A stretch of 64,000 bases of DNA from Bradyrhizobium guangxiense (GTDB lineage: Bacteria; Pseudomonadota; Alphaproteobacteria; Rhizobiales; Xanthobacteraceae). The stretch's first letter is position 1. Each line of letters opens with the position of its first letter. The notes beneath the pieces were generated by a model. That model searched no databases. It was not told where the DNA came from and saw only the letters and a list, made by a program, of their open reading frames with translations. Position numbers and translations under genes: made by a program. Below are positions 1,684-36,152 of this stretch, in pieces. The stretch spans positions 5,176,501-5,240,500 of the forward strand of contig NZ_CP022219.1 in assembly GCF_004114915.1 (NCBI RefSeq). Direction: 5' to 3'.

Positions 1684-2094
1684 ATGCAATCACGGCTGCA
1701 ATCCCCAGCGAGCCCTCGGCTGCACGCGATCGTCGGAGCACTGACGCTGCTCGTGTCCGCTCCCTCCGCGCTCGCGCAGCAGCCGACCAGCGACGAGGCC
1801 GGCAAGCAAGCCTTCAACAATTCCTGCCGCACCTGCCACTCGGCGAAGGAAGGCGACAACCGCCTCGGCCCCAACCTCAACAAGATCGTCGGGCGCAAGG
1901 CCGGCTCGCTGCCGGACTACAACTACTCCTCGTCGATGAAGGAAGCCGGCTTCGTCTGGGACCAGGACAAGCTGACGCGCTTCATGGTGAAGCCGGACGA
2001 CGTGGTGTCGGGCAACAAGATGCAGCCCTATGGCGGCGTCTCGGCGGAGGAAGCGGCGAAGGTGATTGCGTATCTGCAGTCGGCCTCGCAGTAA
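1684..2094 (+). CDS. Class I cytochrome c, periplasmic (c2/c550-like)
   Basis: A 136-residue precursor with a signal peptide ending at about residue 31 (ALA-Q). Haem attachment is by Cys48, Cys51 and His52 (CRTCH) and the distal ligand is probably Met113 in GNKMQPYGG, the normal mitochondrial-type c arrangement. Expected role: soluble electron carrier in the periplasm, matured by the Ccm system. The ATG at 1684 is preferred because GGAGG sits 5 bases upstream; in-frame ATGs at 1639 and 1672 would place an arginine-rich extension before the signal peptide. It follows the transpeptidase on the same strand after a 109-base gap; there is no evidence of functional linkage. Confidence 0.92.
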   Translation: MQSRLQSPASPRLHAIVGALTLLVSAPSALAQQPTSDEAGKQAFNNSCRTCHSAKEGDNRLGPNLNKIVGRKAGSLPDYNYSSSMKEAGFVWDQDKLTRFMVKPDDVVSGNKMQPYGGVSAEEAAKVIAYLQSASQ

Positions 2095-2137
2095 CGACCT
2101 AGGCGAAGCGGGTCGTTTTGTGTCGGCGATCGTGGCC

Positions 2138-2287
2138 ATCCTTCGAGACGCCCGCCTGCGGCGGGCCCTCAGGATGAGGAGCGGAGTGTGCGGTCGCCTT
2201 TCCCTACGAAGCGCTTGCACCAAGGCGAAGATGCCGGTTAGCCTCATCCTGAGGAGCGCGCCCTGGCGCGCGTCTCGAAGGACGAGG
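2138..2287. repeat. Family-A palindromic repeat, copy A1
   Basis: The element has two roughly 45-base imperfect palindromes in opposite orientation. The left arm begins CATCCTTCGAGACGCCCGCC and ends CTCAGGATGAGG (2138-2179). The right arm begins CCTCATCCTGAGGAG and ends GTCTCGAAGGACGAGG (2242-2287). About 60 less conserved bases lie between them. The right arm is essentially the left arm reversed, so the whole is BIME-like. Full copies recur at 2586, 7565 and 10157, and partial ones at 18801 and 21694. It ends 8 bases before the GIY-YIG start codon. Confidence 0.9.
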
Positions 2288-2295
2288 CGTTCACG

Positions 2296-2627
2296 ATGAC
2301 GGACGGGGCGTGGCTCTACATTCTCGAATGTCGGGACGGCAGCTACTACATCGGCACGACGCGCACCCACCTCGAGATCAGGGTTGCGCAGCATAACGCC
2401 GGCACGTTCGAGGGCTACACAAAGTCACGTCGCCCCGTGACGCTGATCTTCTCGCAATGGTTCGATTGCATCCCGACGCGATCGAATGCGAGCGGAAACC
2501 CAAGAAGTGGAGCCGCGCGAAGAAGGAAGCCTTCATGCGCGGCAATTTTGCCGAACTCCATGAATTGGCAAAGCGCGCATCAAGTCATCCTTCGAGACGC
2601 CCGCCTGCGGCGGACCCTCAGGTCTGA
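2296..2627 (+). pseudogene. GIY-YIG nuclease-family gene with a -1 frameshift
   Basis: The first 59 or so codons encode a clear GIY-YIG domain: LYILECRDGSYYIGTT holds the Y-x-x and YIG strands, followed by RVAQHNAGTF with the usual Arg. At the CCC run at 2472-2474 the reading frame breaks: the original frame becomes low-complexity and ends at 2667, whereas the +2 frame immediately continues the family sequence (DAIECERKPKKWSRAKKEAF, then MRGNFAELHELAKRAS) and stops at 2627. The loss of one C from a CCCC run explains this. The start ATG at 2296 lies 8 bases after repeat A1, and the restored C-terminus is encoded by the start of repeat A2. It could be a real inactivating mutation, a sequencing error, or programmed slippage; I favour a recent mutation or error. 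Confidence 0.8.
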
Positions 2628-2711
2628 GTGTGCGGCAACATATCGCCGCGGGACCGCTGGTAGTTAGCCTCATCCTGAGGAGCCCGCTGAGCGGTCGTCT
2701 CGAAGGGCGAG
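2586..2711. repeat. Family-A palindromic repeat, copy A2
   Basis: Second full copy of the paired-palindrome element. The left arm starts at 2586 (CATCCTTCGAGACGCC) and its right arm runs from CCTCATCCTGAGGAG (2668) to about 2711. It has the shared inner motif GAGTGTGCGG. The left arm forms the last codons and the stop of the frame-corrected GIY-YIG gene. Confidence 0.88.
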
Positions 2712-2715
2712 ACGT

Positions 2716-3015
2716 TCACACGGACGGACGACACGGACGCGCCCGCCGCTCCGCGATCAACCTCAGCCACGCTGCCGAGTGAAACGCGCTCATCAAGAGA
2801 TACATCGGCACCATTCCGCCGAGCAGAGAGCCCTGCCCGGCGGCACACAGCAGGTCTGCCGGCCCACCCCCGATCATGACCGTCAGCACGGCCATGATCG
2901 CGAAGGTCGGTGTCGCCGCCAAGGCCAGCCACAAGGCCAGCCACCTGGCGAGATGGCGCGCCGTCACAACGCCGTCGCGAGCGGCGCCGGCGGTTGCGCT
3001 GGCGGGACTAGTCAC
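2716..3015 (-). CDS. Small two-helix membrane protein
   Basis: A 99-residue protein with two predicted membrane helices, at about residues 23-45 (LALWLALAATPTFAIMAV) and 60-80 (GSLLGGMVPMYLLMSAF). The start is probably the GTG at 3013-3015, which overlaps the end of the DUF899 gene (stop at 3008-3010) so that the two are translationally coupled; an ATG at 3111 would overlap that gene by 100 bases and is unlikely. A GGAAGG sequence precedes the GTG very closely, which is a weak point of this start choice. I recognise it only as a conserved hypothetical type (perhaps DUF2798-like); the function is unknown. The gene ends 4 bases beyond repeat A2. Confidence 0.7.
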   Translation of the reverse strand: MTSPASATAGAARDGVVTARHLARWLALWLALAATPTFAIMAVLTVMIGGGPADLLCAAGQGSLLGGMVPMYLLMSAFHSAAWLRLIAERRARPCRPSV

Positions 3016-7564: not shown

Positions 7565-7698
7565 CATCCTTCGAGACGCCCGCCCGAGGCGGGCTCCTCA
7601 GGATGAGGACAGGAGTGCGCGGCAACACTTTGAACTGGCGTTCACGCCGATTAGCCTCATCCTGAGGACGCGCGTAAGCGCCGTCTCGAAGGACGAGG
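7565..7698. repeat. Family-A palindromic repeat, copy A3
   Basis: A full paired-palindrome copy: the left arm CATCCTTCGAGACGCCCGCC opens at 7565, the right arm opens CCTCATCCTGAGGACG at about 7656 and closes at about 7698. It fills most of the 310-base gap between the DUF4403 gene and the transporter operon. The remaining 130 bases (7699-7829) must contain the operon promoter; I see no confident box there apart from the ribosome site AGGACA before 7830. Confidence 0.88.
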
Positions 7699-7829: not shown

Positions 7830-8999
7830 ATGGAAGCCGGCATGGTCACGCCCGCGCCGGCATTGGTGCGCTTTTCCGGCATTCAGAAGACCTATGATGG
7901 CGAGCACCTCGTGGTGAAGAACCTCGATCTCGACATCAGGAAGGGCGAGTTCATCACCCTGCTCGGTCCGTCGGGCTCGGGCAAGACCACCACGCTGATG
8001 ATGCTGGCCGGCTTCGAGGTTCCGACCCACGGCGAGATCTATCTCGCGGAGCGGCCGATCAAGAACATGCCACCGCACAAGCGCGACATCGGCATGGTGT
8101 TCCAGAACTATGCCCTGTTTCCGCACCTGACGATCGCCGAGAATATCGCCTTCCCGCTATCGGTTCGCAAGACCAGCAAGGCGGACGTGCAGGAGCGCGT
8201 CGCTGCGGCGTTGCGCATGATCAAGATGGAAAACCTGGCGCACCGGCGGCCCGGGCAGCTGTCCGGCGGGCAGCAGCAGCGCGTGGCGCTAGCCCGCGCG
8301 CTGGTCTTCAATCCGCAGCTCGTGCTGATGGACGAGCCGCTCGGCGCCCTCGACAAGCGTCTGCGCGAGCAGATGCAGCTGGAGATCAAGCAGCTGCACG
8401 AGACGATGGGCATCACCATCGTCTACGTCACCCACGATCAGAGCGAAGCGCTCACCATGTCGGACCGCATCGCCGTGTTCAACGACGGCATCGTGCAGCA
8501 GATCGACAGGCCCGATGCGCTGTACGAGCATCCGGTGAACAGCTTCGTTGCCCATTTCATCGGCGAGAACAACGTGCTGGCCGGCACCGTCGAGACGGTC
8601 GACAAGGACTATTGCCGGGTTGCGCTGGCCGGCGGCGGCACCGTGACCGCCCGGGCGGTCAACATATCGGGCGCGGGCGCATCGACGTCGCTGTCGGTGC
8701 GGCCGGAGCGGATCGCCATCGTCCCGGACGGCAGCTCCAGCGACGGGACGAACCGCCTGCCGGCGAAGGTGCAGAACACCATCTATCTCGGCGACCATGC
8801 GCTGGCCGTGCTCGACGTCGCCGGCAACGGAGAGTTCATGGTCAAGCTTCAGCCGGGCGCTCATGACAGCCTGAGCCATGGCAACCTAAGACCTGGCAGC
8901 CTAAGACCTGGCGCCCTAAGACCTGGCGCCCTAAGACCTGGCGAAAGCGTCTTCATCACTTTCCGCCCCGAGGATTGCCTCGCCCTCGATCCCGTCTGA
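7830..8999 (+). CDS. ABC transporter ATPase, polyamine/opine importer type (PotA-like)
   Basis: A 389-residue nucleotide-binding subunit with all motifs: Walker A GPSGSGKT (46-53), Q-loop FQNYALFPH (91-99), signature LSGGQQQ (144-150), Walker B VLMDEP (165-170) and the switch His in YVTHDQ. The C-terminal regulatory domain has the TOBE_2 pattern (SVRPERI, TFRPEDC). It energises uptake with the binding protein and two permeases that follow on the same strand. Within the TOBE region, residues 353-371 are a fourfold L-R-P-G-[SA] pentapeptide tract encoded by a 15-base tandem repeat, absent from usual PotA proteins. The start has AGGACA 7 bases upstream. Substrate class (polyamine, opine or similar) is inferred from the family. 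Confidence 0.93.
   Translation: MEAGMVTPAPALVRFSGIQKTYDGEHLVVKNLDLDIRKGEFITLLGPSGSGKTTTLMMLAGFEVPTHGEIYLAERPIKNMPPHKRDIGMVFQNYALFPHLTIAENIAFPLSVRKTSKADVQERVAAALRMIKMENLAHRRPGQLSGGQQQRVALARALVFNPQLVLMDEPLGALDKRLREQMQLEIKQLHETMGITIVYVTHDQSEALTMSDRIAVFNDGIVQQIDRPDALYEHPVNSFVAHFIGENNVLAGTVETVDKDYCRVALAGGGTVTARAVNISGAGASTSLSVRPERIAIVPDGSSSDGTNRLPAKVQNTIYLGDHALAVLDVAGNGEFMVKLQPGAHDSLSHGNLRPGSLRPGALRPGALRPGESVFITFRPEDCLALDPV
8886..8945 (+). repeat. In-frame 15-base tandem repeat inside the ABC ATPase
   Basis: Nearly four copies of the unit CTAAGACCTGGC[AG][GC]C run from 8886 to 8945; copies two and three are identical. They are in frame and encode repeated Leu-Arg-Pro-Gly-Ser/Ala. The unit uses CTA and AGA codons, which are very rare in the neighbouring genes, so the tract looks like a recent local expansion. 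Confidence 0.95.
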
Positions 9000-10156: not shown

Positions 10157-10289
10157 CATCCTTCGAGACGCCCGCCTACGGCGGGCCCTCAGGATGAGGT
10201 CTGAGTCTGTGGCAGCGACTTTACAGGCAACGATGGCGATAAGCCTCATCCTGAGGAGACCGCGAAGCGGTCGTCTCGAAGGACGAGGC
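10157..10289. repeat. Family-A palindromic repeat, copy A4, inside the transporter operon
   Basis: A full paired-palindrome copy from CATCCTTCGAGACGCC at 10157 to GGACGAGG at 10288. It sits between the binding-protein stop (10110) and the first permease start (10322), within what should be one transcript. Its two hairpins could attenuate or stabilise the message unevenly. Confidence 0.88.
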
Positions 10290-18800: not shown

Positions 18801-20838
<2,038 letters not shown>

Positions 20839-21161: not shown

Positions 21162-21704
21162 TTGCCCGACATCCTCCCCCCCCGCCTCCCCGACCAGCTC
21201 CGTCCCGACCTCCGCCTCGTCTTCGTCGGCACCGCCGCCTCGACGCGCTCGGCCGAGCTCGGCCACTACTACGCCCATCCCGGCAATCGCTTCTGGCGTG
21301 CGATCCATGAGGCCGGGATCACGCCGCGGCGCTATCAGCCAAGCGAGTTTGCAGCGCTGATCGATCTCGGGATCGGCTTCACCGATCTCTGCAAGACGGG
21401 CGCCGGGATGGATCACCAGATCGCGGCGGAGGCGATCGACGTGGCGGGGTTCAGGGCGAAGATCGACAAGTACCGGCCGCGGACGATTGCGTTCACGAGC
21501 AAGAAGGCGGCGAGCTTGTTTTACGGCGGGCCGTCAGCTGCGATTGCGCTGGGGCGGCAGGCGCGGGATCAAAGCCTGCCGGAGATTTTCGTGCTGCCGT
21601 CACCGTCGGGTGCGGCCTCCGGGCATTGGACGCTGGAGCCGTGGCGCGAGCTGGCGGCGTGGATCGCCGCGCTGGAGGTTCAACAACCACGGACCTCATC
21701 CTGA
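21162..21704 (+). CDS. Mug/TDG-like uracil or mismatch DNA glycosylase with altered motif A
   Basis: A 180-residue protein of the uracil-DNA-glycosylase fold, closest to Mug/TDG: LVFVGTAASTRSAELGHYY (about 19-37), HPGNRFWRAIHEAG and the C-terminal loop VLPSPSGAASGHW. In E. coli Mug the first motif reads GINPG with the catalytic Asn; here it is GTAAS, so that Asn is absent. It probably removes damaged or mismatched pyrimidines by another catalytic arrangement. The start must be the TTG at 21162, since a stop lies just upstream in frame. The last residues and TGA stop (21702-21704) are formed by repeat A6. Confidence 0.8.
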   Translation: MPDILPPRLPDQLRPDLRLVFVGTAASTRSAELGHYYAHPGNRFWRAIHEAGITPRRYQPSEFAALIDLGIGFTDLCKTGAGMDHQIAAEAIDVAGFRAKIDKYRPRTIAFTSKKAASLFYGGPSAAIALGRQARDQSLPEIFVLPSPSGAASGHWTLEPWRELAAWIAALEVQQPRTSS

Positions 21705-21799
21705 GGAGACCGCGAAGCGGTCGTCTCGAAGGATGGCTGCGAGCGAGGTGCGGGCCTTTCATGGTTCGAGACGGCGCTTCGCGCCTCCTCACCATGAGG
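21694..21799. repeat. Family-A half repeat (A6) with an adjoining palindrome
   Basis: 21694-21735 is only the right arm of family A (CCTCATCCTGAGGAGACC to GTCTCGAAGGATGG). A further palindrome follows at 21760-21799 (CATGGTTCGAGACGGCGC paired with GCGCCTCCTCACCATGAG). The first part supplies the stop codon of the glycosylase gene. Confidence 0.8.

Positions 21800-34502: not shown

Positions 34503-36152
<1,650 letters not shown>

Follow-up and report, generated by a model that had tools for sequence, protein, structure and literature searches.

Small GIY-YIG nucleases as candidate partners of CGTC-tagged palindromic repeats in Bradyrhizobium and beyond

Small GIY-YIG nucleases of two clades, A and D, are probably the dedicated partners of palindromic repeats: of CGTC-tagged REPs in clade A and of related palindromes of the form CCTCATCCTGAGG..TCGAAGGATG in clade D, much as RAYTs are for GTAG REPs. 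According to this reading, to which we give a probability of roughly 0.7, each nuclease would cut its own palindrome, so that palindrome pairs are moved, copied or removed. The pairing of genes and repeats is visible in the loci compared; a cutting or spreading of the palindromes by the nuclease is what we infer from it. One such locus lies in the window, the whole stretch of 64,000 nucleotides of Bradyrhizobium guangxiense DNA that was analysed.

The window locus

A sequence-only reading of the window had described a GIY-YIG nuclease gene framed by palindromes of one family (its family A). Four palindromes, two on each side of the gene, were indeed located between 2140 and 2706. The features of the locus are as follows, with z values for folding as single-stranded DNA.

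2140..2178, minus strand: outer upstream class-m palindrome (z -3.50)
2243..2281, plus strand: inner upstream class-m palindrome, forming a heads-inward pair with 2140-2178 (z -3.45)
2296..2627, plus strand: clade D GIY-YIG nuclease gene, frameshifted near 2472-2478 (PF01541; two-piece match to L042)
2589..2626, minus strand: inner downstream class-m palindrome, diverged, overlapping the gene end (z -0.40)
2669..2706, plus strand: outer downstream class-m palindrome (z -3.39)
2085..2741, no strand: stretch missing at orthologous empty sites, limits approximate (5 genomes with 17-57 bp here)

The palindromes have the form CCTCATCCTGAGG..GTCTCGAAGGATG, and two pairs of them enclose the gene. As single-stranded DNA, three of the four fold better than shuffled sequences (z -3.50, -3.45 and -3.39), and the third in order (2589-2626) does not fold above its shuffles (z -0.40). 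The PF01541 match of the open reading frame at 2296 (E 1.1e-10) is restricted to profile positions 3-57 of 78. Compared with L042, an intact relative, the gene matches in two pieces (query 1-61 at 2296-2478, query 60-109 at 2472-2621), which meet near 2472-2478, so the window gene is frameshifted there.

The gene had been said to begin 8 bases after one element, and to have its frame-corrected C-terminus and stop codon inside a second one. Both statements hold: the repeated stretch ends near 2287-2289, about 8 bases before the ATG at 2296, and the stop in the second frame is 2625-2627, within the region of the next palindrome (2589-2626). In L042 and L048, both intact relatives, the gene likewise ends within a palindrome, so a stop codon in this position is not a product of the frameshift in the window. 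The window copy is a broken member of a nuclease-palindrome unit, and mechanistic inference therefore rests on the intact relatives. The sole Rfam match at the locus, MIR918 (E 0.014), was dismissed as implausible, as its 28.7 bits are far under the gathering score of 268.

Nuclease-free copies of the palindrome, noted earlier at 7565, 10157, 18801 and 21694, were recovered by motif scan as two pairs, one variant pair and one single palindrome:

7568..7692 (7568-7607 minus strand, 7656-7692 plus strand): gene-less class-m pair
10160..10282 (10160-10198 minus strand, 10245-10282 plus strand): gene-less class-m pair
18803..18898 (18803-18841 plus strand, 18863-18898 minus strand): variant pair, closer to class k
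21695..21732, plus strand: single class-m palindrome

A tenth match of the scan, at 34597, was set aside as a chance match inside other sequence and not a palindrome copy. Throughout the window genome (G000, 8.2 Mb) the core CCTCATCCTGAGGAG occurs 51 times and its reversed control 0 times. The same genome carries three further small PF01541 genes and one long PF01541 gene, which we take to be uvrC. Inverted arms of type CGTCATGGCCGGGCTTGACCCGGCCATCCATC enclose L001, and arms of type CGTCATTCCGGGGC..CCCGGAATCCATC enclose L002, which has one in-frame stop; around L003, a truncated GIY-YIG gene, no inverted palindrome flanks were found.

Some further observations concern this genome. Two of its three REP-type GIY-YIG genes are broken (L002 by the in-frame stop, L004, i.e. 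the window gene, by the frameshift) and L001 is open; intact copies of the L002 and L004 genes are present in relatives. The truncated gene (L003:1501-1683) is of the FEKYLKS type and follows a tRNA-like sequence, judged by eye, at a distance of about 200 bases. At window positions 8864-8938 a 15-base unit (TGGCAACCTAAGACC type) is repeated in tandem, giving four overlapping 30-nt copies.

Enrichment of palindromes around GIY-YIG genes

For the genus, 115 GIY-YIG loci from 39 of 40 genomes, among the matches listed, were sampled, and each was scored by its best inverted repeat with one arm in the 300 nt before the gene and the other in the 300 nt after it; the threshold was a score of at least 34. 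This score was reached by 73 of the 115 loci, compared with 13 of 664 other genes of the same loci (at least 150 codons, not length-matched to the nucleases) and with 86 of 1143 mispaired flanks, in which the upstream flank of one locus was set against the downstream flank of another. All matched inverted flanks were found in clades A and D, the REP-type loci (73 of 84, leaving 11 without such flanks), and none in the sister FEKYLKS clade (0 of 31; Fisher 4e-19). Since many loci are orthologous, they were also grouped by flanking DNA into 23 sites; counted by site, with the layout in at least half of the members, it was present at 20 of 21 REP-type sites and 0 of 2 FEKYLKS sites. In a 248-row tree, built on few columns and with many weak forks, the flank label was carried by 142 of 168 clade A rows, 24 of 40 clade D rows and 0 of 39 rows of three other groups.

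The window palindrome was followed with a separate test, in which class-m motifs were sought at most 200 nt away on each side of the gene; its last 60 nt were counted with the downstream part. Such motifs lay on both sides of 21 of the 40 genes filed as clade D (13 of 28 in other alphaproteobacteria and 8 of 12 in Bradyrhizobium, where L070, a clade-A gene admitted by the motif filter, is scored as a miss). Among the controls, the motifs lay on both sides of a single one of 682 other genes and of none of 103 other GIY-YIG genes (Fisher 1.8e-28, kinship ignored). The suspicion that the repeat would be enriched near related nuclease genes was therefore well founded, the enrichment being strong and subfamily-specific (21/40 against 1/682, and 73/84 against 0/31). 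At the level of sequence, the palindrome association of clades A and D is thereby shown.

Palindromes are common in Bradyrhizobium (323 in 1310 kb), and they might accompany these nucleases by chance or through a general tendency of small intergenic genes. We consider this extremely improbable, because flanks of this kind were found around only 13 of 664 other genes (at least 150 codons, not length-matched) and 0 of 31 sister GIY-YIG genes of the same genomes, and because the pairing is class-specific and the layout recurs in other phyla (see below). Chance proximity and general palindrome abundance were thus rejected on three controls, namely other genes, mispaired flanks and the sister GIY-YIG clade.

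Palindrome form and class-specific pairing

In the arms of 74 loci, most clade-A classes showed the form [C/T]GTC, stem, loop, stem, CCA. The CGTC/TGTC/CCTC end was clearest in classes a-h, j and l and less clear in class i, and in class m it is CCTC; the CCA tail was present in most clade-A classes and absent from the window class m. A simple palindrome detector, applied to the surroundings of the genes at loci L036-L115 (1310 kb, with an overlap between two of the loci), found 323 palindromes. Of the neighbours at most 400 nt apart, 122 were tails-inward, so that their tagged ends point outwards, and 20 had one of the other orientations (7, 7 and 6). Among the tails-inward pairs, 90 had a spacer of 20-80 nt and 22 a spacer of 300-400 nt. 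All 22 long spacers hold a GIY-YIG-like frame, so the gene sits inside the spacer of a tails-inward pair in classes such as a, b, c, d, f and j.

Other classes are arranged differently. In classes g, h and part of e the gene lies between two complete pairs, and in the window class m between two heads-inward pairs with a CCTC head and no CCA tail. Gene-less class-m pairs are also heads-inward, unlike the clade-A pairs. A class-e pair folds into one long single-stranded hairpin (z -7.6).

We then asked which palindrome class lies within 250 nt on each side of a gene. The gene's own class was found on both sides at 68 of the 84 REP-type loci and another class on both sides at 0 of 84; for FEKYLKS the count was 0 of 31. 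As the class patterns had been drawn from those same 84 loci, the pairing was retested on 134 other loci, from which 3 near-duplicates were dropped and which were binned by protein identity to a known class. At an identity of at least 70% (37 loci) the own class was present on both sides in 24 and on one side in 4, another class in 0, and none in 9. Between 55 and 70% (78 loci) the own class was found on both sides in 12 and on one side in 14, another class on both sides in 4 and on one side in 5, and no known class in 43. Below 55% (16 loci) there was 1 with a palindrome on one side and 15 with none. Between close relatives the palindrome therefore tracks the protein, and at greater distances it drifts. 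Within the range of these comparisons, each protein class has its own palindrome class.

The palindromes are present in tens to hundreds of copies per genome. For class e the median was 42.5 in the 14 genomes with a class-e gene listed and 4 in the 26 without (p 3.4e-4, kinship ignored; gene presence is that among the matches listed). There were exceptions: several gene-poor genomes are rich in class-e palindromes, and G004 has 145 copies with no class-e gene among the matches listed.

The nuclease proteins

The nucleases of clades A and D are small, about 90-115 amino acids. PF01541 scored above cut-off in the GIY-YIG proteins, none of which matched PF01797, and NCBIfam gave no family above cut-off for six of the nuclease proteins. 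In 31 sequences, two of FEKYLKS type included, eight columns were invariant (Y, Y, G, R, H, E, K and R), presumably catalytic-type residues. By sequence, the nearest solved chains are the UPF0213 proteins 1zg2 and 1ywl (E 7e-20 and 2e-15), followed by the SLX1 chains 7wme, 7cq2 and 6seh (E 3e-6 to 1e-4), for which the PDB name is structure-specific endonuclease.

Seven REP-type classes had median dN/dS values of 0.07-0.09, compared with 0.06 for the FEKYLKS control, with synonymous sites near saturation in some pairs; these values indicate that the nuclease proteins are under purifying selection. In the 115 sampled loci the genes occupy 23 sites, and some genomes have two class-e genes.

A gene retained under strong purifying selection at few fixed sites might serve the host or regulate itself, processing hairpins as a cruciform guard or as a regulator acting on its own flanks, without any spreading of the palindromes. 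The sister FEKYLKS clade, equally conserved without palindromes (median dN/dS 0.06), fits this proposal as well. Nevertheless we consider it unlikely, since a general guard would not need a separate palindrome class for each protein class, and since the presence of the REP pair differs between relatives at the same site, as described in the following section.

Comparison of orthologous sites

The site orthologous to the window locus was examined in 30 loci, 23 of which had both anchors. Among these 23, the gene-bearing unit was found in 10, a pair only in 2 (247 and 259 bp; G005 and G219), degenerate palindromes in 3, an empty site of 17-57 bp in 5 and other content in 3. Strains without the proposed repeat-gene-repeat block thus exist, five with an empty site (17-57 bp) and two with the pair only. 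On a tree of the left flank the full, gene-less and empty states were mixed, clustering no more than in shuffles, so that the tree does not polarise gain and loss at this site.

Of 30 loci examined for the L106 site, 27 had both anchors. Here the orientation of the gene with respect to the flank varies: it is the same in G004 and the opposite in, for example, G020, G033 and G037. A single hairpin with the tagged end on both sides was present in G213, G220 and G240, and the site was empty (22 bp) in G216. The stretch L106:8640-9420 and its orthologues (L257-L285) also form a turnover hotspot that includes extra palindrome pairs of other classes.

The L108 site holds a gene-less class-e pair. 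Its 53 loci form a biased sample, composed of the 30 best matches, 20 chosen for two-piece flank matches and 3 of the loci already sampled, in which 16 had no palindromes, 3 a single hairpin and 34 a pair (some degenerate, of several classes). We also observed that at L108:1489-1628 and its orthologues (L297-L346) the class of the pair (e, c, d or g) depends on the genome, the two stems having changed together. Palindrome classes may have been replaced or converted at this site. Hairpin remnants can arise by ordinary replication slippage and are therefore no demonstration of enzyme action. No target-site duplication was seen in the arms or in the site comparisons, where relatives are too diverged to resolve the exact ends of the elements. 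Across the sampled relatives, gene-bearing, gene-less and empty states are found at the same sites.

GIY-YIG is a homing-endonuclease fold, and the window site is known both with the pair alone (G005, G219) and as pair-gene-pair, as would be expected if a free-standing homing endonuclease copied itself into existing palindrome pairs and the flanks were its target. However, gene-less pairs are plentiful and the genes nevertheless occupy only 23 sites in the 115 sampled loci. Recurrent insertion of the homing type into existing target copies was not found, the sampled loci showing few fixed sites instead. This makes the homing explanation quite improbable.

RAYT-like loci in the genus

The RAYT domain, PF01797, was found in 8 of 40 genus genomes, with no match in the window genome. 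Among 11 RAYT-like loci, one (L287) was too short; 4 of the 10 scorable ones had GTAG palindromes in arms scoring at least 35, and 0 of 11 had CGTC-type flanks in a narrow motif test. The genus therefore appears to hold two parallel REP-enzyme systems. GTAG palindromes such as GTAGGGTGGGCAAAGCGAAGCGTGCCCACC enclose the Y1-transposase genes of L291, L292, L293 and L296, which in this respect parallel the GIY-YIG loci.

Repeat-bounded elements can carry passengers, and with RAYT-type domains in 8 of 40 genomes the palindromes might be moved by RAYT or by other transposases, the GIY-YIG gene merely travelling along. Against this, no RAYT domain was found in the window genome, the scorable RAYT-like loci go with GTAG palindromes (4 of 10, arms at least 35) and show no CGTC-type flanks (0 of 11, narrow motif test), and a class-specific pairing over phyla is not expected of passengers. 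A RAYT as mobiliser is thus unsupported, and we regard the GIY-YIG gene as a passenger as very improbable.

Occurrence in other taxa

Among 289 alphaproteobacterial genomes, 35 were found to have relatives of L042, a count that includes the window genome. Outside the window genome, 17 of 28 loci of the window clade scored at least 34, with the downstream flank including the last 60 nt of the gene; 4 of these 28 belong also to the class-level sample of 30 loci. The stems can change together on the two sides, as with CATGGTGAG..TCGAACCATG in L351 and L365. In the class-level sample, which covers any clade, 15 of 29 testable loci scored at least 34, compared with 6 of 841 mispaired flanks. The best 80 named loci, biased to clade A and to Bradyrhizobium, gave 66 at or above this score and 128 of 955 when mispaired, a higher rate because palindrome classes are shared among them.

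A draw at the level of phyla found a clade-A relative in 105 of 397 genomes. Of 30 of the loci listed, 23 scored at least 34 (12 of 18 outside the class), with 180 of 870 when mispaired; the mispaired controls outside Bradyrhizobium are hence not negligible (128/955 and 180/870). Among the 80 named loci, those that reached the score include records labelled Planctomycetaceae, Marinimicrobia, Desulfobacteraceae, Omnitrophota and Zixiibacteriota, as well as Caulobacter, Sphingomonas and Methylobacterium. Going by these records, clade A retains the palindrome layout in other phyla.

Proposed mechanism and its meaning

In the reading that we prefer, the nuclease would recognise the hairpin or cruciform form of its own palindrome and nick it near the tagged end. 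Host repair of the break might then leave pairs lost, replaced or copied elsewhere, and the gene-less pairs would be a non-autonomous form, acted on in trans. To our knowledge, GIY-YIG enzymes cleave by hydrolysis and do not transfer strands, so the model has to assume host repair.

A wider and more tentative reading, which in our judgement falls somewhat short of even odds, is that of a second, independently evolved form of REP mobilisation across phyla, in which small structure-specific GIY-YIG nucleases might move or multiply CGTC-type palindromes through hairpin cuts and joining by the host, the two partners co-diversifying class by class. If true, this would explain some of the most common intergenic palindromes of bacteria, such as GTCATTCCCGCGAAGGCGGGAATCCA. 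The REPIN-RAYT relationship would also gain a second example, arisen by convergence, and general features of such alliances could then be told from particular ones.

In the part of its text considered here, the 2013 survey of these repeats (PMC3733652) did not settle whether CGTC REPs are moved by an enzyme, or by which one; a candidate can now be named, and matched enzyme-palindrome pairs are supplied. A probable role is offered at the same time for a large group of small uncharacterised nucleases. Judged on the genomic evidence, a widespread class of bacterial repeats has in this nuclease family a good candidate for its missing enzyme partner.

Comparison with known systems

In the sections drawn on here, CGTC-tagged REPs are named for Bradyrhizobium, seem to be without a dedicated transposase and have no associated enzyme reported (Di Nocera et al., 2013; PMC3733652). 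Going by the wording of its description, these repeats share with most clade-A classes the CGTC/TGTC/CCTC end, the palindromic stem, the CCA tail and the high copy number; the window class m differs in lacking the CCA tail. The clade-A palindromes mostly appear to fit the CGTC-tagged REPs. Br-REP1 (CCGGAATCTCGAGATTCCGG) of Bradyrhizobium japonicum USDA 110 corresponds to a junction of class h palindromes; in the portion of the article at hand (PMC5082802), Br-REP1 and Br-REP2 are described as RNA and genome repeats, and the word "nuclease" has 0 occurrences in its text. A published link between GIY-YIG enzymes and REPs was not found in a literature search whose scope omits bioRxiv and most subscription journals.

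Among other systems, UPF0213 and SLX1 have the same catalytic domain as the REP-type nucleases, with a significant profile match; the SLX1 chains are longer (183-324 residues), and the names of the UPF0213 entries do not state a function. Homing endonucleases also have the catalytic domain in common, but no intron or intein was seen here. MITEs resemble the gene-less pairs as short inverted-repeat elements without a gene; they differ in that no target-site duplication was seen here.

The closest likeness is to the REPtrons, in which RAYT (TnpA_REP) genes accompany REPs or REPINs. As in these systems (PMC3116915, PMC8266576, PMC3733652, in the parts relied on), the nuclease gene stands beside its own REP class. 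The cited portions of two of these sources (PMC3116915, PMC8266576) describe RAYTs as mostly single-copy, without evidence of mobility of their own and matched by class to their REPs. From the same parts, the gene is mostly single-copy and stationary, the REP pairs are multicopy and inverted pairs are the non-autonomous form, features that are alike in both systems. The comparison with REP elements and RAYT, made in the sequence-only reading for the window locus, was therefore apt, and it extends to genes at few sites (115 loci, 23 sites) with multicopy repeats. The systems differ in the enzyme, which is an HUH/Y1 transposase (PF01797) in RAYTs and a GIY-YIG nuclease (PF01541) here, and in the palindromes, which are of GTAG type with RAYTs and of CGTC type or CCTCATCCTGAGG type here. 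Because the defining transposase domain is absent, the GIY-YIG system is not a member of REPIN-RAYT; the best reading is that it works like REPIN-RAYT and is built on an unrelated nuclease.
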